Source: Helicobacteraceae bacterium
GTDB lineage: Bacteria; Campylobacterota; Campylobacteria; Campylobacterales; Sulfurimonadaceae
Assembly: GCA_947498025.1 (NCBI GenBank)
Contig: CANMJR010000032.1
Span: 1 to 32,899, forward strand
Reading direction: 5' to 3'
DNA: 32,899 bases
Of this stretch, positions 16,631-32,753 are shown one piece after another. The position numbers and the translations under genes were made by a program. The stretch's first letter is position 1, and every line of letters starts with the position of its first letter. The notes under the pieces are model-generated. The model saw only the letters and a list, made by a program, of their open reading frames with translations. It had not been told where the DNA came from and searched no databases.

Positions 16631-16655
16631 TTTAAATCCAATCTTGTTTTTTTTC

Positions 16656-17069: not shown

Positions 17070-17093
17070 GCAAGCTCTTTTTTATATATAAAA

Positions 17094-17123: not shown

Positions 17124-17145
17124 GTTTGATAGTGTTTGTTTGAAG

Positions 17146-17215: not shown

Positions 17216-17234
17216 GTTTTGTAAATTAATCCAT

Positions 17235-18314
17235 TTAAATAAATTGTTTTGACAGTTCATTTTCAATATAACTAATTGCAAAATCAATTTTAGTAGTCAA
17301 ATTATTATTTGTATCTATTGTTTGATTTAGTCTGTCTTTTAATATTCTATTGCTTAAGTCATCTACCGATTTCCAGTATGAAAAATTATCTAAATATTTT
17401 TCTCTAGTTACCGCTAGTAGCTTACTTTTTGACTCTTGAAAATAAACAGAATGAATGTCAAGACTAATTCTATATAGCTTATAATCGTTTGTGCCTACCC
17501 AATTATCTAATTGTAGTGTTTTACCGTTTATATTAATACTAAGGCCTAAGTCTTCAGCAAAATTAGCACTACTTAGCCAGTGAATATCCATTGCAGCGTC
17601 AAATGCAAATTCTTGACATTTATTTAAAGTTGATTTTGACTTTGTAAAGTTCTCTTTAATATCCTTACGCCTTTTTTTAATACTTTCTGGTAACTGATTA
17701 ATTTCCTTGTTTGAAAGTTTCCAAAATGCATATTTTGCTATTTCAAGTTCAAATCCACTAATAATATTCAAAAGGTTTATTACACCATAAATATAAAATT
17801 CAAATTGTTTTTCTGGACTACAGTTGTTATATTTTAATTTTATTTTTTGTATAAGTAAAATGGAAATATAGGGAGCACCATATACCGTTCTTGAGCCATC
17901 ATCTAAATCAGAAAATTTAATTTTTTGTTGAATTGAATCCTTATCGTATATTCTTTGTGTAGCTAATTGATCATCTTTATGCCCAGGCCAAAATTTTTTA
18001 CAAAATAACTCATATGCTTCTTTTGCTTTTGTAACTCTACAGTCTGGCATTTCATTAATACCGATTGCACTTAATGTAACAAGACCACTGTTCAAAAGGT
18101 TTACTAATGGTAATAAACCAACGTCATTAACTTCTTTTAGACTTGCGCTACCTGATAACATTTCCATTCTTTGAATAGAACAATTGTCTAAATTGATTTG
18201 CACAATTTTATTGTTAAATAGTGCTGATTTGATATATTCAGGAGTTAGTTGACGAGGATTTTCATTTGGATTCCTACATGGTTTGATAAATAGAATATCC
18301 CAATTTTCTTTCAT
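17235..18314 (-). CDS. Unknown 359-aa protein (cassette 6)
   Basis: No family recognised. The N-terminus MKENWDILFIKPCRNPNENPRQLTPEYIKSALF is followed by a mixed alpha/beta region, IQRMEMLSGSASLKEVN, DQLATQRIYDKDSIQQKIKF, and two hydrophobic helices around YIYGVINLLNIISGFELEIAKYAFW that look buried rather than membrane-spanning. A lysine-rich helix (SIKKRRKDIKENFTKSKSTL) and CQEFAFDAAMDIHWL follow. No signal peptide and no P-loop, HxH or nuclease motif. ATG is preceded by AAAGGA. Codon use is very AT-rich like the other cassettes and unlike guaB or gatA. Context (a mobile cassette) suggests an accessory or defence role, but nothing in the sequence proves it. Confidence 0.75.
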   Translation of the reverse strand: MKENWDILFIKPCRNPNENPRQLTPEYIKSALFNNKIVQINLDNCSIQRMEMLSGSASLKEVNDVGLLPLVNLLNSGLVTLSAIGINEMPDCRVTKAKEAYELFCKKFWPGHKDDQLATQRIYDKDSIQQKIKFSDLDDGSRTVYGAPYISILLIQKIKLKYNNCSPEKQFEFYIYGVINLLNIISGFELEIAKYAFWKLSNKEINQLPESIKKRRKDIKENFTKSKSTLNKCQEFAFDAAMDIHWLSSANFAEDLGLSININGKTLQLDNWVGTNDYKLYRISLDIHSVYFQESKSKLLAVTREKYLDNFSYWKSVDDLSNRILKDRLNQTIDTNNNLTTKIDFAISYIENELSKQFI

Positions 18315-18356
18315 GCTAGACGTCCTTTTGTTCGAATGTAGATAATTTTAGTAGTC

Positions 18357-18425
18357 TCATAACGTTTGAGTTGAGAAATAAATTAGCCACAAGATAATTT
18401 ATTTCTCTCCAATAATTTGTTATCC
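18357..18425 (-). other. attC site 5
   Basis: 69 bp. Boxes GGATAAC and GTTATGA on the minus strand. The longest perfect stem of the set: GAGAAATAAATTA (18373-18385) with 18395-18407. Confidence 0.88.
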
Positions 18426-18428
18426 ATA

Positions 18429-19253
18429 TCAGCTAATTGGTATATAAAGCTCCGTTTTTAAATCTTCCTCTTTGATTCCTGTAGGGTCAAGATCAAGATA
18501 TTTTTGAAATGATGGCTCATCTCGTAACTCTACACCACTCTCAACTATCCAATCACCTATATTTCTAAAAGTTTCACCTATAAGTTTATAAGAGCCTTTG
18601 TGCATAAAAAGAGCATATTTACCGCCTGCAATTTGTTTGATAGAAACTTCCTCTTTTGGATTTACACTCTCATTTAACTCTAAGCAAGCATCATATCTCA
18701 AATTATGCTCTTCTATCACATTTGGATTATCATGAGAAATACCATATCTTGCAACTGCTTTTTCAAAAAGCCCGTTCTCAATAATAAATGTCACCATTGT
18801 TTTCCATGCTTCATCAGCAGAGTTTATATAATTCCCGGTTTTTCTCACATATAAAACCTCAATAGGCTCTATCTCTACAATCTTTGGTTCTAACATTTCA
18901 TCTCCTTTTTTCTTTTTTGCATTTTTTGAAAACTCTTTTGGAGTTATCCCAAAATAATTTTTAAAAGCTTTTGAAAAAGAGGCGTTTGTTTCATATCCGC
19001 TTGTTTGTGCGATTTGAGTGATATTAAGATTTGTTTTAAACTTCATTGTCGTACTTGAAAGTCTTACCTTTCTTATGTAGTCACTCAAATTCTCACCGAC
19101 AATAGATTTGAAAATCCTATGAAAATGATATTTTGAAAAACCTGCAACTTTAGATAGCTCTTCAAGGGTTAAATAATCATTATAATTTTGTTCTATATAA
19201 TAGATAATTTTGTAAATACTTTGAAGATACTCATCTTTGGTTGTCTTTTTCAT
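18429..19253 (-). CDS. AraC-family regulator with GyrI-like effector domain (cassette 5)
   Basis: 274 residues. The first ~115 hold two helix-turn-helix units: LTLEELSKVAGFSKYHFHRIFK and then ITQIAQTSGYETNASFSKAFKNYFGITPKEF, the AraC signature. Residues ~120-274 fit the GyrI-like/SOUL-type effector domain (EPKIVEIEPIEVLYVRKTG, AGGKYALFMHKGSY, ELRDEPSFQKYLDLDP, TELYIPI). This is the Rob/SoxS-like arrangement used by drug-responsive regulators such as the BmrR/GyrI group. Normal length, no defect seen. TATAAT at 19283-19288 gives it its own promoter inside the cassette. Confidence 0.92.
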   Translation of the reverse strand: MKKTTKDEYLQSIYKIIYYIEQNYNDYLTLEELSKVAGFSKYHFHRIFKSIVGENLSDYIRKVRLSSTTMKFKTNLNITQIAQTSGYETNASFSKAFKNYFGITPKEFSKNAKKKKGDEMLEPKIVEIEPIEVLYVRKTGNYINSADEAWKTMVTFIIENGLFEKAVARYGISHDNPNVIEEHNLRYDACLELNESVNPKEEVSIKQIAGGKYALFMHKGSYKLIGETFRNIGDWIVESGVELRDEPSFQKYLDLDPTGIKEEDLKTELYIPIS

Positions 19254-19282
19254 ACTGCCTCTTTTAAAAACTTTGTAGAGAA

Positions 19283-19288
19283 ATTATA
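19283..19288 (-). promoter_or_regulatory. -10 element (TATAAT) inside cassette 5
   Basis: TATAAT in the context ACTCTATAATTTC, 29 bases before the AraC-GyrI ATG and inside the cassette limits. Confidence 0.55.
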
Positions 19289-19336
19289 GAGTATCTAAAA
19301 ATTAAAAACTACTCTGAGATTGCTATTTTATTTTTT

Positions 19337-19391
19337 ATATAACGTTTGACTTCACCGACAGCTTGCTGTTCGGTGCTAGGTTTTGTTGTGT
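19337..19391 (-). other. attC site 4 (short type)
   Basis: 55 bp. Boxes ACACAAC and GTTATAT on the minus strand. Stem CACCGA (19353-19358) pairs with 19370-19375, extended by CAGC/GCTG across a bulge. Same outer sequence (AAAACCTAGCA, GAAGTCAA) as attC 1. Confidence 0.87.
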
Positions 19392-19394
19392 GTA

Positions 19395-20045
19395 TCACTC
19401 TTGAATGTCTATTTCACCTAGTAATCTATCAAAATCACTTTTATATGATTTATCTTGAATTACCTTGTATTTTTCAAATTCACTTATAGCAAACTCTTTT
19501 GCAATTTGTGCTGTAACTTTTCCAGCATTTTGTAAAATATCTCGTTCATTTATTTGTTGATAAAAGTTTCTTTCACTCTCTCTTATATCTCTGATTTCTA
19601 ATATTAAATCTTTGAAGTACTGAGGATTTAAATAACTACCATTTTTTAATCTTTCATTATCCAGTACATATCCACGAGTAGCATATTGTTTTAAAACTTG
19701 TGTCGCCCATCTTCTAAACTCTGTGGCTTTGTTTGAGTTGATTCTATATCCTAGTGAGATAATCACTTCTAAATTATAGTGGTTTGTATTGTAGTTTTTG
19801 CCATCATTTGCAGTTATTAGGAATTTCCTAATAACTGAATTTTCCTCTAATTCATGGGTTTTAAATATATTTTTTAGGTGTTCATTTATAGTTGCCACAT
19901 GTACATCAAAAAGTTTAGCTATTAGTTTTTGAGTTAGCCATACAGTTTCATTCTCAACTTTTACTTCTATTGTATCTTGTCCGTTAGCAGTTGTGAAAAT
20001 TAAAAATTCTGCTGTTGAGTTTCTTATGGTTAGGTTTTTATTCAT
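19395..20045 (-). CDS. RhuM-family protein with an internal deletion (cassette 4)
   Basis: 216 residues. The N-terminal domain is typical: ENETVWLTQKLIAKLFDVHVATINEHLKNI (a DNA-binding fold), NYNTNHYNLEVIISLGYRINS, FRRWATQVLKQYATRGYVLD, and RESERNFYQQI. The C-terminal tail NERDILQNAGKVTAQIAKEFAISEFEKYKVIQD also matches the family. Full-length RhuM proteins are about 330-350 residues; here about 120 residues between FYQ and NE are missing in frame (junction near residue 165). The reading frame is kept, so a shortened protein may be made. RhuM proteins are often found near restriction systems and mobile DNA; their biochemical role is unclear. Start overlaps a 24-codon ORF (ATGA). Confidence 0.85.
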   Translation of the reverse strand: MNKNLTIRNSTAEFLIFTTANGQDTIEVKVENETVWLTQKLIAKLFDVHVATINEHLKNIFKTHELEENSVIRKFLITANDGKNYNTNHYNLEVIISLGYRINSNKATEFRRWATQVLKQYATRGYVLDNERLKNGSYLNPQYFKDLILEIRDIRESERNFYQQINERDILQNAGKVTAQIAKEFAISEFEKYKVIQDKSYKSDFDRLLGEIDIQE

Positions 20046-20116
20046 TCTTCGCTCACTATAGTTAGGTTGTCATTTATAGTTTCAAAATTCCAATTTGAGT
20101 CATCTTTAAAACTCAT
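20042..20116 (-). CDS. 24-codon ORF coupled to the rhuM-like gene
   Basis: MSFKDDSNWNFETINDNLTI plus four residues, then TGA. AGGA lies seven bases upstream and the stop overlaps the rhuM-like ATG (ATGA). The cassette's R' box is only 23 bases upstream, so this is the first ORF of the cassette. The short acidic product has no known family; it may be a leader that loads ribosomes onto the next gene. Confidence 0.45.
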   Translation of the reverse strand: MSFKDDSNWNFETINDNLTIVSEE

Positions 20117-20133
20117 TTTCAATCCTCATGTAA

Positions 20134-20201
20134 GTATAACGACTGAATATAGCCAATAAGTCGCCGTGAGGCTACTTATTGGCTACTATGTTTTGTTATA
20201 G
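20134..20201 (-). other. attC site 3
   Basis: 68 bp. Boxes CTATAAC and GTTATAC on the minus strand. Stem TAGCCAATAAG (20150-20160) pairs perfectly with 20175-20185. The DUF4062 stop TAA lies within the R'' box. Confidence 0.9.
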
Positions 20202-21539
20202 TTTTTCATCCATATTTAGTTCAATAGTCTGTTTAAATTCTGTTTCAAATTCTTCACAAATAATACTTACAGTTACTAAATGTTTACCAAAAGTTAATGG
20301 TACTATTTTATATTCATCATCAAATTCGATACATCTAGTATGTAATAAATTATTAATTTTTATTGTTAATTTATTACTATCTAGTTTTGTCCATCTATTC
20401 TCATTAAATGGTTTTATATGATGCATGTTTAAATTAGGTCTAATAAATTCCACTAGGTTATTATTAATATTACCAAATAAAGGCTTCCTAATAATATTAG
20501 TTTGTTCATTTTTGATTAATGACTTTTGATATTTATTTTCCGCACTTTTTAATGGTGAATAAGGTAATGGATTTTCTGGTAATTCAAATTCCTCATCATT
20601 TTTTAAAATTAGAATTTCATTTGGAAATTTTATATCTATATATATATTATTAGCTTTAATTGTTCCTGCATTGCAAATTCTTAACAATAAATCTAGTGAA
20701 CAATTTTTTATTTTATAATATTTTTCAAATGTTTCGTTGAAGCTATCAACTATAGCTTGGCTTGGAATTTCTTTGTTATATTTTTCAATTTCTTCATTCG
20801 TAATAAATTTTTGTAGATGTTCCTCAATTTGATGAGACTGAATTTTAGTTGGTACAACTATTTGTTTGTAATCATTGAATTTTTCTTTATTAGTTATAAT
20901 AAAATTATTTTCATTAATAGTTAACTCAATCTTTGGGATCTTTTTAATTATTTTTGATTCTAAATTTTTAATAATATCTCGTAATTCTCTATTTTCTTTG
21001 CTTAAATTTGTTAATTCTTTTGACAACTCTTCAGAGATTACTTTATCTCCTCTAACCCAACCAATACTTGGTTTTTGCATAATTTGTTTCATAAGTGATA
21101 TAGATACATTTTTGGTTAATTCATCTGTATTTTGCCAGAACTGAGCCATTTTAGAATTTTTTAATACTAAGTCTCTAAAACTATTGATTTCATTTAAATT
21201 ATCATCTCTCTTGTCTTTTGATAAAGAGGCACTATCATCTAATATAAATGCCAGTATGGGTATCTTTTTTTCAAGAGCATATTCATATTCTTTTTGTGTA
21301 AAACTAATATTATCACTTGTTTTTGAACCATATCTTAATCCTAAAATTAAAATATAATAATCACTAATTTCAATAGTTCTTCTTATGATTTCCCATTGGT
21401 CTTCATCTTCTGCACTAAACATTTCCATTCCAATAGGAATATGATACATTTCTAAAATAGATTTAATTATACTTTCTCTTTCATTCTTTAAATCTTTATA
21501 TGTTGAGCTTATAAAAACCTGATATTTTTTCTCTGTCAA
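20196..21539 (-). CDS. DUF4062 protein (cassette 3)
   Basis: 447 residues. The first ~100 are DUF4062: YQVFISSTYKDLKNERESII (6-25), GMEMFSAEDEDQWE, and YYILILGLRYGS with ISFTQKEYEYALEKKIPILAF. The domain has a TIR/SEFIR-like alpha/beta fold and often heads NLR-like or other immune proteins in bacteria. A coiled coil follows (about 165-200, ELSKELTNLSKENRELRDIIKNLE), then a long beta-rich C-terminal region of unknown type with no NTPase motif. Start is TTG at 21539 with AAGGAG five bases upstream, ten bases after the start of the cassette region. Possibly a sensor-effector protein; function inferred only. Confidence 0.85.
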   Translation of the reverse strand: MTEKKYQVFISSTYKDLKNERESIIKSILEMYHIPIGMEMFSAEDEDQWEIIRRTIEISDYYILILGLRYGSKTSDNISFTQKEYEYALEKKIPILAFILDDSASLSKDKRDDNLNEINSFRDLVLKNSKMAQFWQNTDELTKNVSISLMKQIMQKPSIGWVRGDKVISEELSKELTNLSKENRELRDIIKNLESKIIKKIPKIELTINENNFIITNKEKFNDYKQIVVPTKIQSHQIEEHLQKFITNEEIEKYNKEIPSQAIVDSFNETFEKYYKIKNCSLDLLLRICNAGTIKANNIYIDIKFPNEILILKNDEEFELPENPLPYSPLKSAENKYQKSLIKNEQTNIIRKPLFGNINNNLVEFIRPNLNMHHIKPFNENRWTKLDSNKLTIKINNLLHTRCIEFDDEYKIVPLTFGKHLVTVSIICEEFETEFKQTIELNMDEKL

Positions 21540-21563
21540 AACTACTCCTTACTTGTAATGTAA

Positions 21564-21631
21564 CTATAACGGTTGAATAGAGCGAATAAGTAACCGCTAG
21601 GTAACTTATTCGCTCCTATGATTTGTTGTAC
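21564..21631 (-). other. attC site 2
   Basis: 68 bp. Boxes GTACAAC and GTTATAG on the minus strand. Stem GAGCGAATAAG (21580-21590) pairs perfectly with 21605-21615. Very similar to attC 7. Confidence 0.9.
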
Positions 21632-21645
21632 TTGTAATTTCTTGA

Positions 21646-23457
21646 TTATTTATTTCCTCTCAAAATATCTAAAAATAATTGATTTCTGCCTAAAGCATCT
21701 TCTACCATAGTCTCTAATGTTAAGATATGAATAACAGAATTTAATTCCTCATGATATAAATAAAACATTTCACCTTTTGTTGTATATGTTTTTTTAATTC
21801 CTGGAGTTAATCTAATCTCTTTTTTTGTTTCTGGATTGAATGTTGTAATCAAATATGACCATATACGAACTTCTTCTCCATCTTTTTCAAAATGTTCTTT
21901 TATCTTATCTGTATATTTATAAAGCTCATTTAATCCACCTGCATTTTTTTCACCAGTAGCATCACTTCCTTTAAGCTCAATAATAATAATTTCTTTTATA
22001 TCATTTTTACTTTTAGTAAATATACATATATCAGGTCTTGTATCTTTATCTTTATCGTTTAATCCTAAAATATTATTAATAGTATCATCACTATGCGCAT
22101 AACTATAAATCATAAATCTTTCATCAAAAAGCCAAAGGTTATTATCTTTGTAAGATTGGTCATCATCATTACTTGTTCTCTGTGGCATTATTTTTTTATG
22201 GATAATAGTTTCATTAGATTTCTTATTTGGATTCTCTATATCTGCTTTTATATCATTTATGATTTTTTCTCTATCAAATATATACTCAGCTAGTTCTGCT
22301 TGATTACTTGTATATAACCTTTTTTCATAATCATTTTTCTTGATATTTCTAATATCTCGAATATACTCTTTATCAGAATTAAATCTCTCTTTAGCTTCTT
22401 TTATAATCTCTGCACTAGTAGATTTATTTTTACTCTCTTTTATATATGTAGCTAAATAAGGAGCGGACTTTAAGCTTTCTTTTTGATTTGATTTTGTTTT
22501 TTCTTCTATATCGATACCGATGTTTTTACATATATTATCAATGCTTACAAATAGTTTACGATTAATAGTATCCCAATCTAGAGCGTCATCAAAAAAAGCA
22601 TTATTTTTATCTTTTATACTAAAGCTATTCCGTGAATCATCTACATTATTATCAAAAAACTTTGAACTTACAAAAAACAACAATCCTTTGTCTCTTGTAG
22701 TTCTAAATTTTAAACCTAATGTATCTTGTTTTACACTTCTTCCATTAGCACAATAATGCCCTTTGATTGTTGAACCTTTTTGTTTATATGAAACTATAAA
22801 TTTTTCTTCTTTTTGTCCAACTTTGATTGTAAAGTCATTATCTTCAAAACCTGCACCATGTTCTTTTGCTTCAATAGTAGATGTTAATTCACCATCAATA
22901 TAAAAATGCATAAATAGATTTTTTTCTGCATCTACCATAAATTTAAATATAGATAAAAAATGTCCTATTATTTCTTTCTCTTCATCTTGAAAATCTACAT
23001 TTATATCCCTATTGTGTACATTTACAAAGTCTATTTTTGTCTTTTTAACTAATGGCTCATTTTTAAGTCTTGTTAGTTTTATCTCTTCCATATTTAAATC
23101 AAAACTAAATTTCACATTTGAATCATTATTGTAGCTTGTAAATTCAACATTATCACAAAGAGTTAGGTATGTAAATCTACCTACACCTTTACATCCAAGA
23201 TCTTCTTTATAGTCAGATAAGTAGTGATTAAAAGAGTCTATATTATCATCCGTAAATCCATCTCCATTGTCAACAATAGTAAAATTTTTAACTCTTCTTT
23301 TTTCTTCTGTAATATCTATAGGTAAAGTTTCAAAATAAATATTTATTTCAGTTGCATTCGCTTGAATACTATTAGTTATAGCTTCCTCTAAAACACTTGT
23401 CAATTTAAAATTATCAGGAAGTTTTTTTAAGATTTGTTTTGTCGTAACTATTGGCAT
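21646..23457 (-). CDS. GHKL ATPase with C-terminal PD-(D/E)XK-like domain (cassette 2)
   Basis: 603 residues. N-terminal HSP90/MutL/MORC-type ATPase: LEEAITNSIQANA with the catalytic Glu near 24-25 and Asn 29, DNGDGF (63-68, nucleotide-binding), and GCKGVGRFT (88-96, ATP-lid glycines). A transducer-like region follows (KGHYCANGRSVKQ, DDSRNSFSI), then a helical linker to about 430. The C-terminal part has NLWLFDERFMIYSY, RPDICIF (Asp 476), IIIIELKG (Glu 494, Lys 496) and LNELYKY, which together look like a PD-(D/E)XK nuclease core. Candidate DNA-degrading effector gated by ATP. TGCTAAAAT at 23484-23492 is a promoter in the cassette. Confidence 0.85.
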   Translation of the reverse strand: MPIVTTKQILKKLPDNFKLTSVLEEAITNSIQANATEINIYFETLPIDITEEKRRVKNFTIVDNGDGFTDDNIDSFNHYLSDYKEDLGCKGVGRFTYLTLCDNVEFTSYNNDSNVKFSFDLNMEEIKLTRLKNEPLVKKTKIDFVNVHNRDINVDFQDEEKEIIGHFLSIFKFMVDAEKNLFMHFYIDGELTSTIEAKEHGAGFEDNDFTIKVGQKEEKFIVSYKQKGSTIKGHYCANGRSVKQDTLGLKFRTTRDKGLLFFVSSKFFDNNVDDSRNSFSIKDKNNAFFDDALDWDTINRKLFVSIDNICKNIGIDIEEKTKSNQKESLKSAPYLATYIKESKNKSTSAEIIKEAKERFNSDKEYIRDIRNIKKNDYEKRLYTSNQAELAEYIFDREKIINDIKADIENPNKKSNETIIHKKIMPQRTSNDDDQSYKDNNLWLFDERFMIYSYAHSDDTINNILGLNDKDKDTRPDICIFTKSKNDIKEIIIIELKGSDATGEKNAGGLNELYKYTDKIKEHFEKDGEEVRIWSYLITTFNPETKKEIRLTPGIKKTYTTKGEMFYLYHEELNSVIHILTLETMVEDALGRNQLFLDILRGNK

Positions 23458-23483
23458 TTTTACTCTTTAAAATAATATGTAGT

Positions 23484-23492
23484 ATTTTAGCA
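23484..23492 (-). promoter_or_regulatory. Extended -10 (TGCTAAAAT) inside cassette 2
   Basis: TGCTAAAAT on the minus strand 26 bases before the GHKL-nuclease ATG, within the 72-bp leader of the cassette. Confidence 0.5.
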
Positions 23493-23523
23493 TATTTCAG
23501 TTTTGTATAATTTACTATGTTAA

Positions 23524-23577
23524 GTACAACGGTTGACTTCAGTGATGCAAAGCGTTCACTGCTAGGTTTTGTTAGCG
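23524..23577 (-). other. attC site 1 (short type)
   Basis: 54 bp. Boxes CGCTAAC and GTTGTAC on the minus strand. Stem CAGTGA (23540-23545) pairs with 23556-23561. The upstream gene's stop TAA (23572-23574) lies inside the R'' box. Confidence 0.87.
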
Positions 23578-24642
23578 TCTTAAATGCATTACTCTTGATT
23601 CTGGAAATATTTTCTGAAGACGTTGACCTAAATATTCCACTGTATCCTCTAATACAAAGACTAAAGGTTTATTAAAACTTGCTAGTTTACTACGCTTACC
23701 ACCCAATTGATACATATCGCTTACTGACGGATGCTTATCAAATAGTATGTATAGGTCAGAACAAGATTCGTATGTATTAATTTCTACTGAATTCTCTGGT
23801 TTACAATATGCTGGATAAACTTTATATGTACAAGAAGAAATATTTTCAATTTGAGTTATTTCATTTACAAAAGAAATAATATTGTGATTTTTATTGTCAT
23901 GTCGTTCTGTCATAGCAATAATTTTATTTCCATATTTATCCATCATCTGAGTATATGATTCAACTCCACCTCTAGGACTTGGATTATCTAATAAGTCATG
24001 TTGAGAATATTTATTACCATCATCAATTAATGTAATTTTATTTATCCCAATTTCTAATTTTATATTCTTTGCATCTCCATATAAAAATGCATTACGAGTT
24101 ATTTCAATTAAATATATTTTAATATGTTCTACTAAGTCTTTACCCCAAAGAAAATGAGCATTTGAGTCAATAATAGCATCACCAATTAGTTGATTTTCAA
24201 AGCCATTAGTCGTATTATCAATTGTTATTGTATTCTTGGCTAAACCTAATGATAACAATGATAAATCTCCATTAATTGATTTGCCTAACTCATGTTCGAT
24301 TTTTGCTCTTTTTTCAGCTATTTCTTTCCACTGATGTAATGAATCAGCTGTAAAGCGTACTTCATCATTGTCAATTTGTTTACCATGTTTATAACACATC
24401 CAAATCCCATTATTAATAGACTTTCGTTGTTCTGGGGTCATACCTTTTTTATAACGTTTTGCACCTTTTCCATCTGCAGCCGCATATATGTGACAAGCCA
24501 TACCTGTGGCATCAATAGGGGATTCCATCTCATCACTTGGACCAATTGTTGTAGTCCAACATGATGGGAATGAGCATTTAAACCCTGTCCTTTTGGCAAG
24601 TATATCTTTGGTTGCTTGTGAAAAATTATCTCTATTTGACAT
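23572..24642 (-). CDS. HNH endonuclease fused to a GHKL-type ATPase-like domain (cassette 1)
   Basis: 356 residues. The first ~110 are an HNH-like zinc nuclease: C23 and C28 (KCSFPSC), ACHIYAAADG with His 51, TPEQRKSINNGIWMC with N77/N78 and C83, and H86 before GKQIDND. A helical linker leads to a histidine-kinase/MutL-like part: LIEITRNAFLYGDAKNIKLE (N box with Asn 184), ITLIDDGNKYS (Asp 207/208, G1 box); the G2 box is not clear. The tail (LFDKHPSVSDMYQLGGKRSKL) is not recognised. Nuclease plus GHKL in the opposite order to the next cassette. Stop overlaps attC 1. A defence role is plausible. Confidence 0.82.
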   Translation of the reverse strand: MSNRDNFSQATKDILAKRTGFKCSFPSCWTTTIGPSDEMESPIDATGMACHIYAAADGKGAKRYKKGMTPEQRKSINNGIWMCYKHGKQIDNDEVRFTADSLHQWKEIAEKRAKIEHELGKSINGDLSLLSLGLAKNTITIDNTTNGFENQLIGDAIIDSNAHFLWGKDLVEHIKIYLIEITRNAFLYGDAKNIKLEIGINKITLIDDGNKYSQHDLLDNPSPRGGVESYTQMMDKYGNKIIAMTERHDNKNHNIISFVNEITQIENISSCTYKVYPAYCKPENSVEINTYESCSDLYILFDKHPSVSDMYQLGGKRSKLASFNKPLVFVLEDTVEYLGQRLQKIFPESRVMHLRR

Positions 24643-24692: not shown

Positions 24693-24701
24693 ACTATAGC
24701 A
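24693..24701 (-). promoter_or_regulatory. Candidate promoter outside the array reading into cassette 1
   Basis: TGCTATAGT (extended -10) on the minus strand, 51 bases before the HNH-GHKL ATG and upstream of the GTTAGCT box, so it would drive the first cassettes from fixed DNA like a Pc promoter. Confidence 0.4.
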
Positions 24702-24838
24702 CAAAAATATTGAATAATAATTATTAAAGGAACATGAAAAATGTCCTCTCCAAAATATAAATTCAAGTGATTTTATGACAAATTGTCATGCTTTTGATAT
24801 TTTTTCCTCATTTACATTATTATACTTAAAGAATAGAG

Positions 24839-24922
24839 TGTCCAATTAGCATGGAGCTAGCTGTTATTTGGACAAAGTGTTCCGTTATTTGTAAAATAAC
24901 CCATTAAAAGGACACAATGTCC
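24839..24922. repeat. Three consecutive hairpins between the array and the small membrane protein gene
   Basis: TGTCCAA (24839-24845) pairs with 24868-24874 and encloses TAGC/GCTA (24847-24850, 24856-24859); GTTATTT (24884-24890) pairs with AAATAAC (24894-24900); GGACA (24910-24914) pairs with TGTCC (24918-24922). On the minus strand the last is followed by TTTT, so it may terminate the ileS-tail operon. The first two are unexplained. The gene-free stretch 24643-24979 holds these, the array edge and an A/T-rich segment with a further ACAT/ATGT stem near 24733. Confidence 0.55.
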
Positions 24923-24979
24923 CTTGAGCGAGAGGAGTGAATTATGGAGATTACGAAGAAATTGCTAAAAATTACATCC

Positions 24980-25102
24980 CTACGGATTTCTAGACTTTTT
25001 GCCTAGCTTAACAAGTGCAATACCGACGCCTATTATGACAAATATCACAGCTACTGTAACTGCGATAAATGTAAAAGAAACTGGCTCTGCGAAGTTAGGC
25101 AC
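24980..25102 (-). CDS. Small single-span membrane protein downstream of the ileS tail
   Basis: 40 residues from GTG 25102: VPNFAEPVSFTF, a strongly hydrophobic helix (IAVTVAVIFVIIGVGIALV) and a basic end KLGKKSRNP. GAGG lies six bases upstream within the ileS tail, and the two frames overlap by eight bases. I recall a small membrane-protein gene between ileS and gatA in Campylobacter jejuni and relatives, so this is probably that conserved gene and marks the original upstream neighbour of gatA. Positive-inside rule places the C-terminus in the cytoplasm. Function unknown. Confidence 0.7.
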   Translation of the reverse strand: MPNFAEPVSFTFIAVTVAVIFVIIGVGIALVKLGKKSRNP

Positions 25103-25241
25103 TTAGAACCTCGCTACATCTTTGGCATGTGGACTTTTCATCTTTAGCATGGTATTTCCAACATCTTGGGCATTTTGCTTTTGTTGCTTTTGAAATCACA
25201 AAAGTGTCTTTGTTGACTTTAAAAGTTCCAAACTCCAACTC
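25095..25241 (-). pseudogene. ileS: 3' tail of isoleucyl-tRNA synthetase gene (ileS remnant)
   Basis: 48 codons open to a TAA at 25095-25097: ELEFGTFKVNKDTFVISKAT, then KCPRCWKYHAKD and CQRCSEVLSA. The C-P-R-C-W-K-Y ... C-x-R-C-x-E-V-L pattern is the C-terminal zinc finger of bacterial IleS, which is about 900 residues in full. The frame closes at a TAG (25242-25244) and the DNA upstream is unrelated, so ~95% of the gene is missing. A complete ileS must exist elsewhere. A 3'-end remnant like this can result from a rearrangement or from an element inserted near the gene's end. Confidence 0.85.
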
Positions 25242-25303
25242 CTATAAGAACTACAATCTGCAATACAAACCCTCAAACCTGGGCTTAGAAGCTAGAAAAA
25301 CTT

Positions 25304-25573
25304 TCAAGCAACATCTTGGGCTAAATGTAGATTTCCTTGTTGTTTTAACTTTAAATAAAGTGACTCAGCACTTAATTCAAGCCCATTTTTCCAGCATAAA
25401 GCTCCGAAGTCGATAAAGAACTGTTGAAAATATGTTGTATCTTCCAAAGGTTTAGTTAAAACGGTACTAGCTTTTAAAAGATAGGAAAAATCAAGAATAC
25501 CAAAACTGTTATCAGAAAAATAAAGTTTTATTTTGTAATCTTCATAGAATGAGACTTTTATTACATTAATCAT
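25304..25573 (-). CDS. DUF2442-family protein
   Basis: 89 residues, MINVIKVSFYEDYKIKLYFSDNSFGILDFSYLL..., then FQQFFIDFGALCWKNGLELSAESLYLKL. The pattern (V-x-V/F, L-x-V/I-x-F-x-D/N-G, F-G-x-L-x-W-x-N-G-x-D/E-L-x-x-x-x-L-Y) is DUF2442. It overlaps the DUF4160 gene by eight bases, and this pair is very common on mobile DNA and in toxin-antitoxin-like contexts, though its biochemical role is not established. Its last codons share a 13-bp sequence with the ileS tail (CAACATCTTGGGC at 25159 and 25310). Confidence 0.85.
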   Translation of the reverse strand: MINVIKVSFYEDYKIKLYFSDNSFGILDFSYLLKASTVLTKPLEDTTYFQQFFIDFGALCWKNGLELSAESLYLKLKQQGNLHLAQDVA

Positions 25574-25832
25574 TATCTGCTCCTGCTATTTTTTCAAGTG
25601 GTTCAAATCGCTGTGCCAATTCCCAATCTACAAAAAGCTCCGCTTGATGCTCTAAAATCCACTCTTTGATAAGATTGTAAGCTTTTTTAGGAATGGTACC
25701 TTTTATTATTTGAGTATTCTGAATATCTATCAAAGCAACATACCCCTGATATTCAACATGAATGTGCATAGGAGGGTGGTCATCATGGTACATTCTTATG
25801 TAAATACCAAAAAAATATGAAATAATAGGCAC
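25566..25832 (-). CDS. DUF4160-family protein
   Basis: 88 residues from GTG 25832 with AAAGG upstream. PIISYFFGIYIRMYHDDHPPMHIHVEY is the hallmark of DUF4160 (F-x-G-I-x-I-x-M-Y-x-x-D-H-x-P-P-H-x-H), including the conserved histidine cluster that could bind a metal, followed by WILEHQAELFVDWELA. Partner gene DUF2442 overlaps its 3' end. A TATAAT at 25861-25866 lies 28 bases upstream. Probably a two-gene accessory module, toxin-antitoxin-like by context only. Confidence 0.87.
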   Translation of the reverse strand: MPIISYFFGIYIRMYHDDHPPMHIHVEYQGYVALIDIQNTQIIKGTIPKKAYNLIKEWILEHQAELFVDWELAQRFEPLEKIAGADND

Positions 25833-25860
25833 TTTTGAACCTTTTTTAGCAATTCAAAAA

Positions 25861-25866
25861 ATTATA
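25861..25866 (-). promoter_or_regulatory. -10 element (TATAAT) for the DUF4160-DUF2442 pair
   Basis: TATAAT in the context GTGTATAATTTT on the minus strand, 28 bases before the GTG start. The divergent sodB leader lies on the other side; a TACAAT at 25944-25949 is its likely -10 on the plus strand. Confidence 0.55.
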
Positions 25867-26002
25867 CACAAAAATAGATAAATTCAAATCTATCTTTCTT
25901 TATCAAGTTTTGATTTCTCCATATTTCCTCCATAGTTTTTATATACAATTTTATCAAGCTAAGTGTAGCTTTGAATTACTTAGATAAAAAAGGATGGATA
26001 AG

Positions 26003-26683
26003 ATGATACATGAATTGATAAAATTACCTTATGCATATAATGCATTAGAGCCCATGATGTCTGCCGAAACATTACAATACCATCATGATAAACATCATGC
26101 AGGTTATGTCACAAAATTGAATACTCTTATTTCCGGTACAGAGTTTGAATCAAAAAGTCTAGTAGAAATTATAAAACATGCGGAGGGTGCTGTTTTTAAT
26201 AATGCTGCACAGGTATATAACCACGATTTCTTTTGGACAACTCTATCGCCTAAACCATCAGCCCCGTCATCGGCACTTGACTCTATTATCGGTGCACAGT
26301 TTGGTTCGATAGAAGCCTTTAAAAAATCTTTTATTGAAAAAGGTATTGCCTTGTTTGGCTCAGGTTGGGTGTGGCTGTGCATTGATGATAAAGAGAATCT
26401 CAGTATTGTCAGTACCTCCAATGCTGATAATCCTCTTCGTTCAGGTTTAGTTCCGTTAATGGTGTGTGATGTATGGGAACATGCTTATTATATCGACTAC
26501 AGAAATGCGCGTGCAGATTATCTTGAGGGTTTTTGGAAACTTCTAAATTGGAGGTTTGTATCGTTTAATTTTGCAAACCATGAAAAACACCGCGGAGATT
26601 ATTTTTCCAACTTTTGCAAAGATAACACACCCTATTGTGATTACATAGACACACTTGAAGCGATGGAAGAATCAGGAAGCTGA
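26003..26683 (+). CDS. sodB: Iron superoxide dismutase with a C-terminal extension
   Basis: 226 residues from ATG 26003; the ATG at 25994 overlaps the ribosome site AAGGA. Metal ligands are His 27 (QYHHDKHH), His 74 (VYNHDFFW), Asp 156 and His 160 (DVWEHAYY). Gln 70 in NNAAQVYNHDFFW is the second-sphere residue typical of the iron type. The enzyme converts superoxide to peroxide and oxygen in the cytoplasm (no signal peptide). Usual length is about 193-200; here a ~30-residue tail (after SFNFANHEK) with two Cys has no known role. Heads a same-strand gene group including HiPIP, oxidoreductase and copper ATPase genes. Confidence 0.95.
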   Translation: MIHELIKLPYAYNALEPMMSAETLQYHHDKHHAGYVTKLNTLISGTEFESKSLVEIIKHAEGAVFNNAAQVYNHDFFWTTLSPKPSAPSSALDSIIGAQFGSIEAFKKSFIEKGIALFGSGWVWLCIDDKENLSIVSTSNADNPLRSGLVPLMVCDVWEHAYYIDYRNARADYLEGFWKLLNWRFVSFNFANHEKHRGDYFSNFCKDNTPYCDYIDTLEAMEESGS

Positions 26684-26707
26684 TAAATATTGATAAAGGA
26701 GATTATC

Positions 26708-26962
26708 ATGAAAGTTACAACACGAAGAAGTTTTTTTCAATATATGGCTATATTAGGTTTGGCTACCTTCAGTGCTACGCCATTGTATGCTAAAGGTACA
26801 AAGGCACAGTATTTATATCAAGAGAGTCCAAAAGACGGTAAGCAGTGTTCTCTTTGTATGCATTTTATTCCTGAGAGTAACGAATGTAGAATGGTAGAAG
26901 GTTCAATTAGCCCTGATGGTTATTGTGCCGCATTTTATAAAAAACCTGAAAAAAATAAGTAG
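26708..26962 (+). CDS. HiPIP-like iron-sulfur protein with a Tat signal
   Basis: 84 residues from ATG 26708 with AAAGGAG at 26696-26702. TTRRSFFQYM is a twin-arginine signal followed by a hydrophobic stretch, so the folded protein is exported. Four cysteines (47, 50, 60, 73) spaced C-x2-C-x9-C-x12-C within DGKQCSLCMHF, NECRMVEG and ISPDGYCAAF fit the high-potential iron-sulfur protein family, which binds one [4Fe-4S] cluster and carries single electrons in the periplasm. It sits between sodB and the oxidoreductase fusion. Its redox partner is not identified. Confidence 0.88.
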   Translation: MKVTTRRSFFQYMAILGLATFSATPLYAKGTKAQYLYQESPKDGKQCSLCMHFIPESNECRMVEGSISPDGYCAAFYKKPEKNK

Positions 26963-27040
26963 AAAGTTGTTTATGATAAAGGGCTTCTAGGGTGCTTTAA
27001 AAATAGATAATACTATGATTCACTTATTGAAAGGAATATT

Positions 27041-29494
27041 ATGACACTTGAAGAGTTGAGTCATTACAACGGTAGAGACGGGAACCCTGCTTATGTTGCA
27101 TACAAAGGTGTTGTGTATGATTTAAGCCAGAGTGATATGTGGAAAAATGGTGAGCATCAAGGAGAACATGTTGCCGGTGTAGATTTGAGTGAAGCTTTGC
27201 AGCATGCTCCGCATGGGGAAGATGTCTTCAAGGGGTTCAAAGAAGTTGGCAAGTTGGAAATGCATGAGAAGAAGATTCCCATGTCAAGACAAGAGTTGAA
27301 GCTCAAATACACGATAACTTCTAAAGAAAAATGGCGTAGATGGTACCAAATATATCATCCGCATCCGGTTACTGCTCACTTTCCGATTGTGTTGCACTTT
27401 TTTGCAGCGGGGATGGATATCGCTTTTATCTTCTCACCTCTTGAAAAGTTTGAACAGGGTACTTACTACGCTTTTTTATTTGCTACACTGTTTGGTTTGA
27501 TAGCTATGATTAGCGGAATTTTAAGCTGGTGGGTAAACTACAATTTTAATGTGATTCGACCACTTGTTATTAAGCTCTACACCTCCATATTTACATTATT
27601 GCTTGGAATCATAGGTATAGTATTGCATGTACTTAATCCTATGATAGCTTACAATAGTGATGCCTTAGCACTCTTTTATCATTTTTCTATTCTCATTACC
27701 GTACCATCCGTTATAGTTCTTGGCTATTATGGCGGCAGGCTCACATGGTGGAGACAAACGAAAAGTGATACAGAAATTGCAAACCATCTTCATCAAGAGA
27801 GCGTAGAGTCAAAATTTTTATTGCACAATGATTTTACGATTATGATTGGAGGCTCCGCAGGCTCCGGTATTAAAACGATAGAGACTTTGCTGAGTGATGT
27901 ATTTGCTTCGATGGGATATTATGTTTTTTCAACAAAAGAGTACATGTCAAGAGTAAGAGGCGGAAGTAACACAGTCCAAATTCGTGTGTCAGACACAATG
28001 ATAAAAGCTCCAAAGTGGAAGCCTGACCTATTCTTGGCTCTTGATGAATTGTCGGTATCGCATGTAAAAGATAGGATTGGAGTGGACACTTTTGTCATCG
28101 GAGGTCAAAATGAGAAGTTTTCAAATCATTTACAGATTTCCTTGCAAGAAGAAGCGAAAAAACATGTGACGAAACAGTTTATAAATACATTTGCGGCAGG
28201 CATGTTGTTTGGTTTGTTAAAATTACCGCTAGAAGCACTTGAAAACAGTTTGAAAAAACATTTTAATGAGAAAGACCACGAAGCGAATCTTGAGGCTATA
28301 CGACAAGGTCATATGTATGCCCAATCACAAAATATAGAGCTCAAAAAGTTTCCTGCCCCGCCTAAAAAGAGTGGTGAACCAATGCGTTACATAGATGGTA
28401 CGACTGCGGCAGGTTTCGGCTTTTTAGTAGGTGGATGCAATAGTGTAACATCCTACCCGATGTCTCCATCAACCGGAGTGCTCAATTTTTTAGCCGGATT
28501 ATCCAAAGATTTTGAGATTGCAATCGAACAGGCAGAAGATGAGATAGCAGCATTTAACATGGTTTTAGGTGTTTGGTACGCTGGAGGCAGAGGACTGACC
28601 ACAACATCGGGTGGCGGTTTTGCACTGATGAGTGAGGGTCTCAGCCTCTGTGGCATGACAGAGACACCTGCCGTTGTCTATTTGGCACAACGACCGGGAC
28701 CCGCAACCGGACTTCCGACCCGTACCGAACAAGGCGATTTAAATCTTGCCCTTTACGCCGGGCATGGTGAATTTCCTCGTCTTATCTTAGCTCCCGGTGA
28801 TGCTTTAGAAGCGTTAGAACTTGGGCATTTGGCATTTGAGATAGCAGACCGTTTTCAAGTCCCTGTTTTATATTTAAGTGATCAGTATTTAGCCGACTCT
28901 GTACAATCAATCCTCAAAGTAGATTTTGAGCTTTTTTCTCAAAAGAGATATATCGTAAAAAGTCAAGCAGATTATTTACGCTATAAGATTACACAGAGCG
29001 GCATAAGTGAACGAGCTATTCCCGGATACGGTGAGGGTCTTGTTTGTTGCGACAGTGATGAACATGACGAACGCGGACAGATAACCGAGTCTTATAAAGT
29101 CCGAGAATCTATGGTGGATAAGCGTAAACGAAAACTTGAACAGCTGCGCAATGTTGCTATCGCACCGGAGATTATCGGTGATGGGAATATCGCGATTGTA
29201 GGCTGGGGTTCAACAAAAGGTGCTATTTCAGAGGTTCTTTCTCAGCTTGACGATTCAAGACTTACACAGGTACACTTTTCATGGATATATCCGCTCAACA
29301 AAGGACATCTCTCAAAATTATCTGATATGGACTTTATTATCGTAGTGGAAAATAACTCTAATGCGCAATTCACCGACTTATTGAAACTTAGCGATGTCAA
29401 AGTGGATGCAACGATACTGCAATCAAACGGATTTCCATTTTTCAGTGATATTTTAGTCGATAAAATAGCACAAAAAGTCAAGGAATTGTCATGA
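27041..29494 (+). CDS. Cytochrome b5 / DUF2231 membrane / 2-oxoacid oxidoreductase gamma-alpha fusion
   Basis: 817 residues in one uninterrupted frame. Residues 1-75: cytochrome b5-like domain (YVAYKGVVYDLSQSDMW, NGEHQGEHVAG, LQHAPHGED) with candidate haem ligands His 39/43 and His 55/58. Residues ~105-235: DUF2231 domain (HPHPVTAHFPIVLHFF) with four membrane helices near 111-132, 142-164, 173-198 and 207-230. Residues ~264-440: gamma-type domain (GGSAGSGIKT, YMSRVRGGSN). Residues ~455-815: alpha domain of a 2-oxoacid:acceptor oxidoreductase (SYPMSPSTG, EQAEDEIAAFNMVLG, TGLPTRTEQGDL). The beta subunit gene overlaps by four bases. Four helices put both ends in the cytoplasm. Could pass electrons from the beta-subunit cluster to haem or the membrane instead of ferredoxin. 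Confidence 0.85.
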   Translation: MTLEELSHYNGRDGNPAYVAYKGVVYDLSQSDMWKNGEHQGEHVAGVDLSEALQHAPHGEDVFKGFKEVGKLEMHEKKIPMSRQELKLKYTITSKEKWRRWYQIYHPHPVTAHFPIVLHFFAAGMDIAFIFSPLEKFEQGTYYAFLFATLFGLIAMISGILSWWVNYNFNVIRPLVIKLYTSIFTLLLGIIGIVLHVLNPMIAYNSDALALFYHFSILITVPSVIVLGYYGGRLTWWRQTKSDTEIANHLHQESVESKFLLHNDFTIMIGGSAGSGIKTIETLLSDVFASMGYYVFSTKEYMSRVRGGSNTVQIRVSDTMIKAPKWKPDLFLALDELSVSHVKDRIGVDTFVIGGQNEKFSNHLQISLQEEAKKHVTKQFINTFAAGMLFGLLKLPLEALENSLKKHFNEKDHEANLEAIRQGHMYAQSQNIELKKFPAPPKKSGEPMRYIDGTTAAGFGFLVGGCNSVTSYPMSPSTGVLNFLAGLSKDFEIAIEQAEDEIAAFNMVLGVWYAGGRGLTTTSGGGFALMSEGLSLCGMTETPAVVYLAQRPGPATGLPTRTEQGDLNLALYAGHGEFPRLILAPGDALEALELGHLAFEIADRFQVPVLYLSDQYLADSVQSILKVDFELFSQKRYIVKSQADYLRYKITQSGISERAIPGYGEGLVCCDSDEHDERGQITESYKVRESMVDKRKRKLEQLRNVAIAPEIIGDGNIAIVGWGSTKGAISEVLSQLDDSRLTQVHFSWIYPLNKGHLSKLSDMDFIIVVENNSNAQFTDLLKLSDVKVDATILQSNGFPFFSDILVDKIAQKVKELS

Positions 29495-30354
29495 ATAATA
29501 CATTTATACGCCCCGAAACCGATAAGGCATGGTGTCCGGGATGCGGTAACTTCGGCATTCTAAATTTAGTTTCAGAAGTGCTTGAAGAACTTGAACTGGG
29601 TAAACAAAATCTAGTGTTTGTTTCAGGTATTGGACAAGCCTCAAAGACGCCGCACTATTTGGATGTTAACATGTACAACGGGTTACATGGGAGAGCTTTA
29701 CCTGTAGCAACCGGGATAAAAATGGCAAATCCGGAACTCATAGTTGTCGCGGAGGGCGGAGACGGTGACATGTACGGCGAGGGCGGAAACCATTTTTTAA
29801 ACGCCGTGCGCAGAAATTTAAATATCGTACATATCGTGCATAACAACATGGTGTACGGACTTACAAAAGGGCAGGCATCTCCAACCAGCCAAAGAGAGTT
29901 TAAAACCAAGGTTCAAGTAAACGGCGTAAGTAATGAACCGTTTAATCCTCTTTCAGTGGCATTATCATTAAATGCCTCTTTTGTCGCCAGAGCTTACATG
30001 CAGAACAAAGAACATACGAAAGAAATTCTTAAAGCTGCCTTTTTACACCAAGGGTATGCGCTTATAGATATATTTCAACCTTGTGTGGTATTTAACCCAG
30101 TAAATACCTATAAATGGTTTTCTGAAAATAGCTATATTTTAGAAGAGCATGATACGGCTAACATTATGTCGGCGATGGAAAAAGCTATGCAAACGCATCC
30201 CTTTGCTTTGGGAATATTTTATCAACAAGAGCGTAAGACTTTTGAAGAGTCATTATGGAAAAGCGAAGAAACATCAAATCCGCTGTATACTCAAAAACAT
30301 GATATAAAAGAGATGCAAAAGCAATTCGATAAATATACGCTTTCGTATCTTTAA
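29491..30354 (+). CDS. 2-oxoacid oxidoreductase beta subunit (TPP-binding)
   Basis: 287 residues. Overlaps the fusion gene by ATGA, so both subunits are made together. WCPGCGNFGIL gives two cluster cysteines and IFQPCVVFNP a third; the position that is Cys in many relatives (VSGIGCSS) is Gln here (VSGIGQASKTP), a variant I recall from some archaeal and clostridial proteins. LHGRALPVATG, GGDGDMYGEGGNH and HNNMVYGLTKGQASPT form the thiamine-diphosphate and Mg2+ site. With the alpha and gamma domains it would oxidatively decarboxylate a 2-oxoacid (pyruvate, 2-oxoglutarate or similar) to an acyl-CoA. Substrate not decidable by eye. Confidence 0.92.
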   Translation: MNNTFIRPETDKAWCPGCGNFGILNLVSEVLEELELGKQNLVFVSGIGQASKTPHYLDVNMYNGLHGRALPVATGIKMANPELIVVAEGGDGDMYGEGGNHFLNAVRRNLNIVHIVHNNMVYGLTKGQASPTSQREFKTKVQVNGVSNEPFNPLSVALSLNASFVARAYMQNKEHTKEILKAAFLHQGYALIDIFQPCVVFNPVNTYKWFSENSYILEEHDTANIMSAMEKAMQTHPFALGIFYQQERKTFEESLWKSEETSNPLYTQKHDIKEMQKQFDKYTLSYL

Positions 30355-30372
30355 ATAGAAGGAGGTTAGATA

Positions 30373-30570
30373 ATGATGTATGATTTAGGATTTCATGGAT
30401 TTGGAATGTGGATTGGTTGGTTTATACCTATTTTGATAATTCTGGTAATTTTCTATATGTTTCAAAATAAGGATGATAAGTTATCGGCTAAAGATATACT
30501 TGACAAGAAATATGCAAACGGTGAGATTGATGATGAAGAATATAAAAAAAAGAGAGACGCTATAAAATAG
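30373..30570 (+). CDS. Small membrane protein with SHOCT domain
   Basis: 65 residues with AGGAGG just upstream. An N-terminal membrane helix (MWIGWFIPILIILVIFYMF) is followed by LSAKDILDKKYANGEIDDEEYKKKRDAI, the SHOCT motif (x-I-L-x-x-R/K-Y-A-x-G-E-I-x-x-E-E-Y-x-x-x). SHOCT is a short C-terminal oligomerisation motif; such peptides often sit next to copper or heavy-metal transporter genes. It lies 14 bases upstream of the copper ATPase gene, so probably co-translated. Function unknown. Confidence 0.85.
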   Translation: MMYDLGFHGFGMWIGWFIPILIILVIFYMFQNKDDKLSAKDILDKKYANGEIDDEEYKKKRDAIK

Positions 30571-30584
30571 AGAGGAGGTACACT

Positions 30585-32753
30585 GTGAGTAAAGATGAAA
30601 ACATAAGCTGCAAAGATAATTCTTGTACTATTGCCCAAAATTATTATACATGTCCTATGCACCCGGAAATTGTAAACGACAAACCTGGTAGTTGCCCAAA
30701 ATGTGGGATGGCTCTTGAACCTGTGAGTGTAGAAGCTACTGGGGACTATGATGAACTTCACGATATGAGTCGTCGTTTTTGGATAAGTGCGATTGTGTCG
30801 TTGCCGGTTTTTATAGTTGCCATGATGGGTGACTTTGTTCCGCAATATCTGCCAGTCAGCATGCGAAATATTCAATGGTTTGAATTTCTCTTTGCAACAC
30901 CTGTTGTTCTCTGGGGAGGATACCCTTTTTTTGTGCGCGGATGGAAATCGGTTGTAACGCGAAATCTTAACATGTTCACCCTCATTGCCATCGGTGTGGG
31001 AACTGCGTGGATATACAGTATCATCGCACTCTTTTTACCAAATATTTTTCCACCCTTAATGCAGACCCACTCCGGTTTGGTACATGTCTATTTTGAAGCA
31101 GCCGCCATTATTACTACTTTTGTGCTTTTAGGTCAGGTATTGGAGCTCAGAGCGCGGAGCAAAACGAACAGTGCCATCAAGACCCTTCTCAATCTTGCTC
31201 CCAAACAAGCACATCTCGTTGATAAAGACGGGAATGAGAGGGATGTTGGTCTTGAACACGTTAAAGTAGGTGATTTTTTGCGGATTAAACCGGGCGAAAA
31301 AATACCTGTGGACGGTGTCGTAATACAAGGACAAAGCAATATTGACGAATCCATGATTACGGGAGAGCCTATTTTTGTTGCAAAAACGGTTGAAGACTTG
31401 TTGATAGGTGCCACACTGAACAAAAACGGAACATTAATCATGCGTGCCGGCGGTGTAGGAAAGGATACGATGCTCTCACAGATTGTGGAGATGGTGGCAC
31501 GCGCACAGCGTTCGCGCGCTCCGATTCAGAAGCTTGCAGATACAGTGTCAGGCTATTTTGTTCCGGCTGTTGTGCTATCTGCAGTTTTAGCTTTTGCAGG
31601 ATGGTGGTTTTTTGGTCCCCAGCCTCGTTTGGCATATGCTGTTGTAGCGGCAGTTTCTGTATTGATAATTGCATGTCCTTGCGCTTTGGGCTTGGCAACA
31701 CCCATCTCCATCATGATAGGAATCGGTCGAGCGGCACTAGAAGGAATATTAGTCAAAGATGCTCAGACAATAGAGATGATGGAAAAAGTCACTACGCTTG
31801 TAGTTGACAAAACCGGAACATTAACGCAAGGTAAGCCCACGGTTACAACTTTTAAAATGTTACATGGCATAGATACAAAAGAAGCGTTGCGTTATGCAGC
31901 AAGTTTGGAACGTGCCAGTGAACATCCTTTGGCAGAAGCAGTAGTAAACAAAGCCAAAGAAGAAAATGTATCACTGACTGAAGTTCACTCTTTTAACGCA
32001 ATTACGGGAAAAGGGATAGAAGGCGAAATAGATAATAAAAAAATTGCTATGGGCAGTGAGAAGTTTTTTCAAAGTTTGGGCATTTCTACTGAGGAGACTA
32101 TCCATGAAGTTCATCAATTGCGTCAAGAAGGAAATACAGTGATTTTCTTGGCTGTTAATTCTAAATTAGCCGGTATTATAGGGATAGAAGACCCCATAAA
32201 AGAAACATCAGCTGAAGCGATTAAAGCACTCAAAAATGAAGGAATTGATATTGTCATGATAAGTGGAGATAATGACACAACCGCGCATGCCGTAGCCAAA
32301 AAACTCAATATTACAAAAGTATATGCCAATGTGCTTCCTCATGAAAAGGCAGAGATTATCAAACTCTTGCAGGCAGACGGTGCAATCGTGGCGATGGCGG
32401 GCGATGGTATAAACGACGCTCCGGCGCTAGCACAGGCAGATGTAGGCATTGCCATGGGAGAGGGCACTGATGTGGCAATAGAGAGTGCCGGAATCACGCT
32501 CATCAAAGGGAATCTTCTTGGCATTTTAAAAATAAGAAAGCTCAGTCATGCCATTATGAAAAATATCAGACAAAATTTATTTTTTGCATTTTTTTATAAT
32601 AGCGTGGGTGTTCCTATCGCAGCCGGAGTTTTGTATCCATTTTTTGGTGTACTACTTTCACCCATCCTAGCTGCGGCGGCTATGAGTTTTAGTTCGGTAT
32701 CGGTCATTATGAACGCTCTGCGTTTAAAAAATATGAGTTACTTAAAAAAATAG
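30585..32753 (+). CDS. copA: Copper-type P1B ATPase, ending at the IS border
   Basis: 722 residues from GTG 30585 (AGGAGG, 30573-30578, six bases before). N-terminal metal-binding finger YTCPMHPEI...CPKCGMAL (about 21-46) replaces the usual HMA domain. Membrane core carries CPC (364-366, IIACPCALG), the phosphorylation site DKTGT (Asp 408), the SEHP motif (His 447) and GDGINDAPAL. This is the Cu(I)-exporting (CopA) type; silver is possible. The TAG stop uses the first base of the IS terminus at 32753 as its G, so the native C-terminus may have been longer by a few residues. The final NALRLKNMSYLKK is the normal place for the family to end. Confidence 0.92.
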   Translation: MSKDENISCKDNSCTIAQNYYTCPMHPEIVNDKPGSCPKCGMALEPVSVEATGDYDELHDMSRRFWISAIVSLPVFIVAMMGDFVPQYLPVSMRNIQWFEFLFATPVVLWGGYPFFVRGWKSVVTRNLNMFTLIAIGVGTAWIYSIIALFLPNIFPPLMQTHSGLVHVYFEAAAIITTFVLLGQVLELRARSKTNSAIKTLLNLAPKQAHLVDKDGNERDVGLEHVKVGDFLRIKPGEKIPVDGVVIQGQSNIDESMITGEPIFVAKTVEDLLIGATLNKNGTLIMRAGGVGKDTMLSQIVEMVARAQRSRAPIQKLADTVSGYFVPAVVLSAVLAFAGWWFFGPQPRLAYAVVAAVSVLIIACPCALGLATPISIMIGIGRAALEGILVKDAQTIEMMEKVTTLVVDKTGTLTQGKPTVTTFKMLHGIDTKEALRYAASLERASEHPLAEAVVNKAKEENVSLTEVHSFNAITGKGIEGEIDNKKIAMGSEKFFQSLGISTEETIHEVHQLRQEGNTVIFLAVNSKLAGIIGIEDPIKETSAEAIKALKNEGIDIVMISGDNDTTAHAVAKKLNITKVYANVLPHEKAEIIKLLQADGAIVAMAGDGINDAPALAQADVGIAMGEGTDVAIESAGITLIKGNLLGILKIRKLSHAIMKNIRQNLFFAFFYNSVGVPIAAGVLYPFFGVLLSPILAAAAMSFSSVSVIMNALRLKNMSYLKK

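Follow-up and report, generated by a model that had tools for sequence, protein, structure and literature searches.

Why does a fragment of ileS lie beside an attC array in this genome, and what became of the rest of the gene? The DNA analyzed here (the window; 32,899 bp) is the whole of contig C32 of a draft Sulfurimonas genome of 2.93 Mb in 102 contigs. An earlier reading made from the letters alone (the sequence-only reading) had recognized an IleS zinc-finger tail of 48 codons at positions 25095 to 25241. Translation of the minus strand from 25095 to 25229 gives GTFKVNKDTFVISKATKAKCPRCWKYHAKDEKSTCQRCSEVLSA followed by a stop, with the CxxC...CxxC zinc-finger cysteine motif intact, and this C terminus shares 91% amino acid identity with the same stretch of a full-length IleS encoded on another contig, C79. 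The tail is therefore real. Its length, however, had been overstated: DNA similarity to full ileS reaches its limit at 25231, the final ~10 bp of the reported span are not ileS, and the truncated second copy of the ileS 3′ end (25095 to 25231, minus strand) comprises 44 codons and a stop. Overlapping the end of the tail is a second copy of a gene for a 40-amino-acid (40-aa) membrane protein (24980 to 25102, minus strand), which follows ileS in most relatives in the genus; the products of the window and C79 copies are 97% identical over 39 aligned residues. We confirmed the order that had been described: on the minus strand, the tail is followed by the gene for the 40-aa membrane protein, then by the attC array, gatA, and guaB.

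A full ileS had been predicted to exist elsewhere in the genome, with ~95% of the gene gone from this locus. We found the full gene on C79 (positions 1004 to 3766); it encodes 920 amino acids and scores 884 bits against TIGR00392 (cutoff, 621). As in relatives, C79 (6,353 bp) carries ileS together with the same 40-aa gene and a divergent neighbor (called cinA). A sequence search of the genome contigs returned one other match to the tail, C79:885-1140, with an E value of ~1e-100, which excludes chance. The matching 256 bp (92% DNA identity) take in the ileS tail, the small gene, and a few bases of the end of intI, and they form a direct repeat whose arms stand on either side of an insert. The view that most of ileS has been lost is wrong, since the gene survives whole beyond an 8.3-kb insert and an IS; what the window contains is an additional, partial copy. 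That copy is a scar, and the intact ileS elsewhere keeps a working enzyme in the cell.

One IS type terminates C32 at both ends and C79 at its left end; across the genome, six IS ends are of one kind and four are of the other. Within the window, positions 1 to 145 and 32753 to 32897 are identical ends of this IS type, with 8-bp target duplications; the assembly contains these ends but not the interior of the IS. The end of the IS copy joining C32 to C79 occupies 32753 to 32899 (plus strand) and is recognized by the target duplication in its flanks, AAAAAATA, found at 32745 to 32752 and at C79:145-152. This is one of three perfect 8-bp flank pairs, the others being C22/C47 (AAATAAAC) and C72/C50 (GAAAAAAG); the probability of a chance 8-bp match among 24 pairs is ~0.0007 by base composition and is somewhat higher for words as A-rich as these. 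Furthermore, in a relative (G115), the homologue of C79:210-313 begins 27 bp past the copA 3′ end (window position 32746). Because of the paired flanks and the neighbors in G115, we infer that C32, the IS, and C79 are very probably contiguous, and this join across the IS is strongly supported. It gives the order ileS, small gene, ~8.3 kb (plus the IS), second tail and small gene, array, gatA, and guaB.

Gene order was compared across 80 named contigs plus 16 further genomes. The basic order is ileS, small gene, gatA, and guaB, often with nothing between (e.g., L092, L100, L115, L125, and L146). The order given in the sequence-only reading is thus seen without an array in many relatives, and in the genome studied here the array does divide the small gene from gatA. 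intI is present in 46 of 100 genus genomes searched, and in 9 of these (G005, G016, G049, G068, G073, G082, G086, G090, and G100) it lies directly after the small gene, in convergent orientation. The same seat is occupied in L082, L085, L087, L090, L130, L133, and L135, some of which are the same organisms as in the first set; in G012, one transporter-like gene lies between the small gene and intI. Two intI genes that we tested scored 414 and 407 bits against TIGR02249. In relatives, intI ends at the 3′ end of the small gene, and this point, not ileS, bounds the integron. In the closest relative, L078 (98% IleS), the order is ileS, small gene, a remnant of the intI end, a DUF3465 gene, and gatA; the DUF3465 gene also lies between the small gene and gatA in L097, L091, and L101. 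Since this gene, common to L078, is the distal gene of the array (16292 to 16657, minus strand; next to gatA), the integron site is old in the clade.

The sequence-only reading had also considered that close relatives might carry the same fragment or that no second ileS might exist. Neither is the case: the intact copy is on C79, and an ileS tail was found in 110 of 135 genus genomes, with a truncated extra copy in the present one (G000) and in no other. A candidate second truncated tail in G034 was rejected, because its two pieces come from one stretch that is present identically at the ends of two overlapping contigs.

The array consists of seven cassettes (16657 to 24642, minus strand), delimited by a repeat family, inverted repeats, and folding, with the cassette genes on one strand. 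The attC-like sites (near 16657-16720, 17149-17213, 18361-18424, 19339-19388, 20134-20200, 21565-21629, and 23525-23575) have common ends and a central hairpin. Five of the seven fold better than all 200 shuffles, and two short sites do not; the attC calls were made from the repeat family and folding, and a strict scan for the arm-pairing pattern gave just one clear site. Besides DUF3465, the cassette genes include those for DUF4062, a HATPase_c_3 protein, RhuM, and an AraC/Cass2 regulator. The native downstream flank is formed by gatA (14803 to 16152, minus strand) and guaB (11860 to 13305, minus strand), each of which occurs once in the genome.

A profile search detected no IntI above the TIGR02249 cutoff in this genome. 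In place of the integrase gene of a complete chromosomal integron, only head and tail codons are left, as a deletion scar at 24944 to 24983 (plus strand) in which codons 1 to 10 (MEITKKLLKI) are joined to the last ~7 codons, with ~310 of ~326 codons lost. Of the 3,492 start sites in the window, the one at 24944 scores highest against a profile of 18 IntI N termini (14.1 versus 8.9 bits for the next). Past the ten codons, the open reading frame enters the last ~25 bases of intI, and its stop overlaps the end of the small gene, as in intact loci; the head and tail DNA of the scar both align to intact intI. The upstream, attI-like region has been kept (24700 to 24943, minus strand) and is conserved with intact loci, having the same arrangement as that upstream of intact intI in G067, G086, and G049. 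It contains AAATAACGGAACACTTTGTCCAAATAAC at 24863 to 24890, and the matches to intact intI upstream regions are CCCATTAAAAGGACA, ATGTCCCTT, and CACTTTGTCCAAATAAC. The original site, and the origin of the array by deletion of intI, can still be read directly in the DNA.

The inserted block spans 25232 to 32752 (plus strand) and continues at C79:145-884. As annotated with Pfam, its genes encode DUF2442 and DUF4160 proteins, superoxide dismutase, a small redox-type protein, POR alpha with Cyt-b5/DUF2231, POR beta (the POR genes being those for 2-oxoacid:ferredoxin oxidoreductase subunits), a SHOCT protein, and a CopA-type ATPase. Parts of the block lie at separate loci in relatives; hence, this is ordinary chromosomal material that has been brought together. 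In the L078 genome, for example, a superoxide dismutase pair lies ~142 kb from ileS on what is apparently the same 306-kb contig, and in G120 copA stands directly before gatA. The block is therefore composite and may have entered in steps, and some of it may already have been in place between ileS and gatA, as copA is in G120. The earlier proposal that other DNA was inserted into the ileS-gatA locus is supported by the IS join and by the neighbors in relatives.

We consider the best explanation of the split ileS locus, with a probability of roughly 80%, to be a chromosomal integron with a deleted intI together with an insert bracketed by a repeat of the ileS tail, produced most simply by single-crossover integration. 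The ancestral order would have been ileS, the 40-aa membrane gene, intI (convergent), attI, cassettes, gatA, and guaB, with the integron, of the sedentary chromosomal type, lying between the small gene and gatA. Two later events are visible. A deletion within intI left ~10 first and ~7 last codons, turning the integron into an integrase-less attC cluster. In addition, ~8.3 kb of chromosomal-type genes was inserted, with the 256-bp segment now forming a direct repeat on both sides. The incoming DNA would most simply have consisted of the block and an ileS-tail allele from a relative, and a circle of this DNA would have integrated by a single crossover (Campbell-like), or it would have entered by an equivalent transformation event. 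Later, an IS landed in the insert, and the assembly broke there.

The sequences of the two tails bear on this proposal. They differ by ~8% (19 differences), compared with 93% identity between this genome and L078 over ileS. The dN/dS ratio for the pair is ~0.18 in the ileS part and ~0.04 in the small gene; as most changes are synonymous, the sequence was functional when most of them arose. At six differences in a row, with an exact match in all cases but one, the window copy follows L079 and L081 and the C79 copy follows L078. To judge from these patterns, the two tails look like two alleles and not like one decaying duplicate, which favors import of the second allele.

A tree of 249 bp does not separate import from an old duplication (AU test P values, 0.58 versus 0.52). 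Under the duplication explanation, the ileS tail and small gene were duplicated in tandem within the genome long ago, and insertions and deletions between the copies followed. In the tree, a sister relationship of the two copies is supported as well as any alternative, and at the interval's opposite edge L079 has a similar partial duplication (gatA 5′ end and DUF3465 3′ end). However, the sequence past the small gene differs between the copies, so that large later deletions would be needed; the copies have diverged, mostly at synonymous sites, by as much as separates this genome from the next species; and relatives with 97 to 98% IleS identity lack a second copy. We regard an old tandem duplication as possible but unlikely.

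The sequence-only reading had suggested that the remnant may be the scar of an element targeting the 3′ end of ileS. On this view, a site-specific integrative element would have inserted itself at that 3′ end, completing ileS with the tail it carried, and the original tail, now displaced, would be the fragment in the window. The layout is the classic one for such an element, with a direct repeat bounding the insert and with the intact gene and a 3′ tail at opposite ends; moreover, G115 carries a broken tyrosine integrase-like gene (L194:2771-3952) after copA and the homologue of C79:210-313, beside the latter. Nevertheless, Pfam annotation revealed no integrase, recombinase, or mobility gene in the sequenced insert (C32:25232-32752 plus C79:145-884). 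The repeat is 256 bp at 92% identity and not a short identical core, and no distinct att core was found. There was no plasmid match to the array or insert, no phage match to the junction region, and no relative of the ileS tail among viral contigs, nor did these searches turn up the block as a circle or in a donor. The truncated extra tail occurs in one genome of 135. An integrative element is quite improbable, and the suggestion is not supported.

More doubtful still is that the interval between ileS/small gene and gatA is a hotspot in which incoming DNA repeatedly duplicates the end of a flanking gene (the ileS tail here and the gatA head in L079) by an undescribed route tied to the integron site. 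Least probable of all is an artifact of assembly or binning, in which the tail was wrongly joined or C32 came from a second strain: the draft is in 102 contigs with a contamination figure of 2.29%, and the contig ends in IS copies, but the 19 differences from the C79 copy mean that the tail is not made of misjoined ileS reads, gatA and guaB occur once, C79 and C32 are both closest to L078, and the target duplication and G115 synteny join the two. Insertion of a cassette into ileS by IntI at a secondary site was dropped, since no attC was seen by eye beside DUF2442 and the duplication of the ileS tail would not follow from it.

With an intI-deleted integron and integration by a single crossover as the preferred reading, the locus is a local rearrangement of a known kind and not a new system. 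It resembles a Campbell-type insertion-duplication in having a direct repeat around the insert, with one complete and one truncated gene copy; it differs in that the repeat is 92% identical and the donor circle is only putative. A CALIN is an attC cluster lacking an integron integrase (PMC8618304, PMC9024848). The array descends from a sedentary chromosomal integron and, with at least two attC sites and no nearby intI, falls under this definition, its lack of a functional intI being due to loss of the gene. What sets it apart is that the intI scar, the upstream region, and the original site remain readable.

The closest published parallel is Xanthomonas, in which intI lies after ilvD, is ancestral in the genus, and is often inactivated by frameshifts, stops, and large deletions, while the attC arrays remain (PMC12444791). 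The locus described here is similar in its fixed seat at a housekeeping gene, its lost intI, and its attC array left in place. In contrast to Xanthomonas, the Sulfurimonas seat is at the small gene after ileS, before gatA, and there is in addition an insertion that duplicates the ileS tail. Campylobacterota are named among integron carriers (PMC8618304); among the papers searched for Sulfurimonas integrons, none on this site was found. Beside ileS, Sulfurimonas has a recurrent home for chromosomal integrons that parallels ilvD in Xanthomonas, and in the present genome the deletion that froze the array is legible at the level of single bases. Sulfurimonas is common at vents and in sulfidic waters and would lend itself to work on integron gain, silencing, and loss.

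Several further observations were made in the window and in relatives. The N terminus of the first cassette protein (23572 to 24642, minus strand) matches the PADLOC HNH/SAVED and PDC-M68A models, and RhuM (19395 to 20045) matches PDC-S05; the array may carry defense genes. Among small toxin-antitoxin-like genes (640 to 2280), a 79-bp direct repeat occurs at 493 to 571 and 1579 to 1657, with a third copy of 33 bp at 2368 to 2400. In L079 (S03.Bin072), a mirror-like scar is present (L079:16269-16675 and 22238-22760), in which the first ~58 gatA codons and a DUF3465 fragment are duplicated beyond ~5.6 kb of other genes, before the full gatA. G031 has two full-length ileS genes (C55:22903-23034 and C41:713-844), reflecting either a strain mix or a true duplication. 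Finally, in L060, L061, L063, L064, L067, L070, L072, and L077, intI is followed by a gene starting ATGATAGAGAGATTTTACTTAAAAGA, a pairing that suggests that the genus has another recurrent site for integrons.
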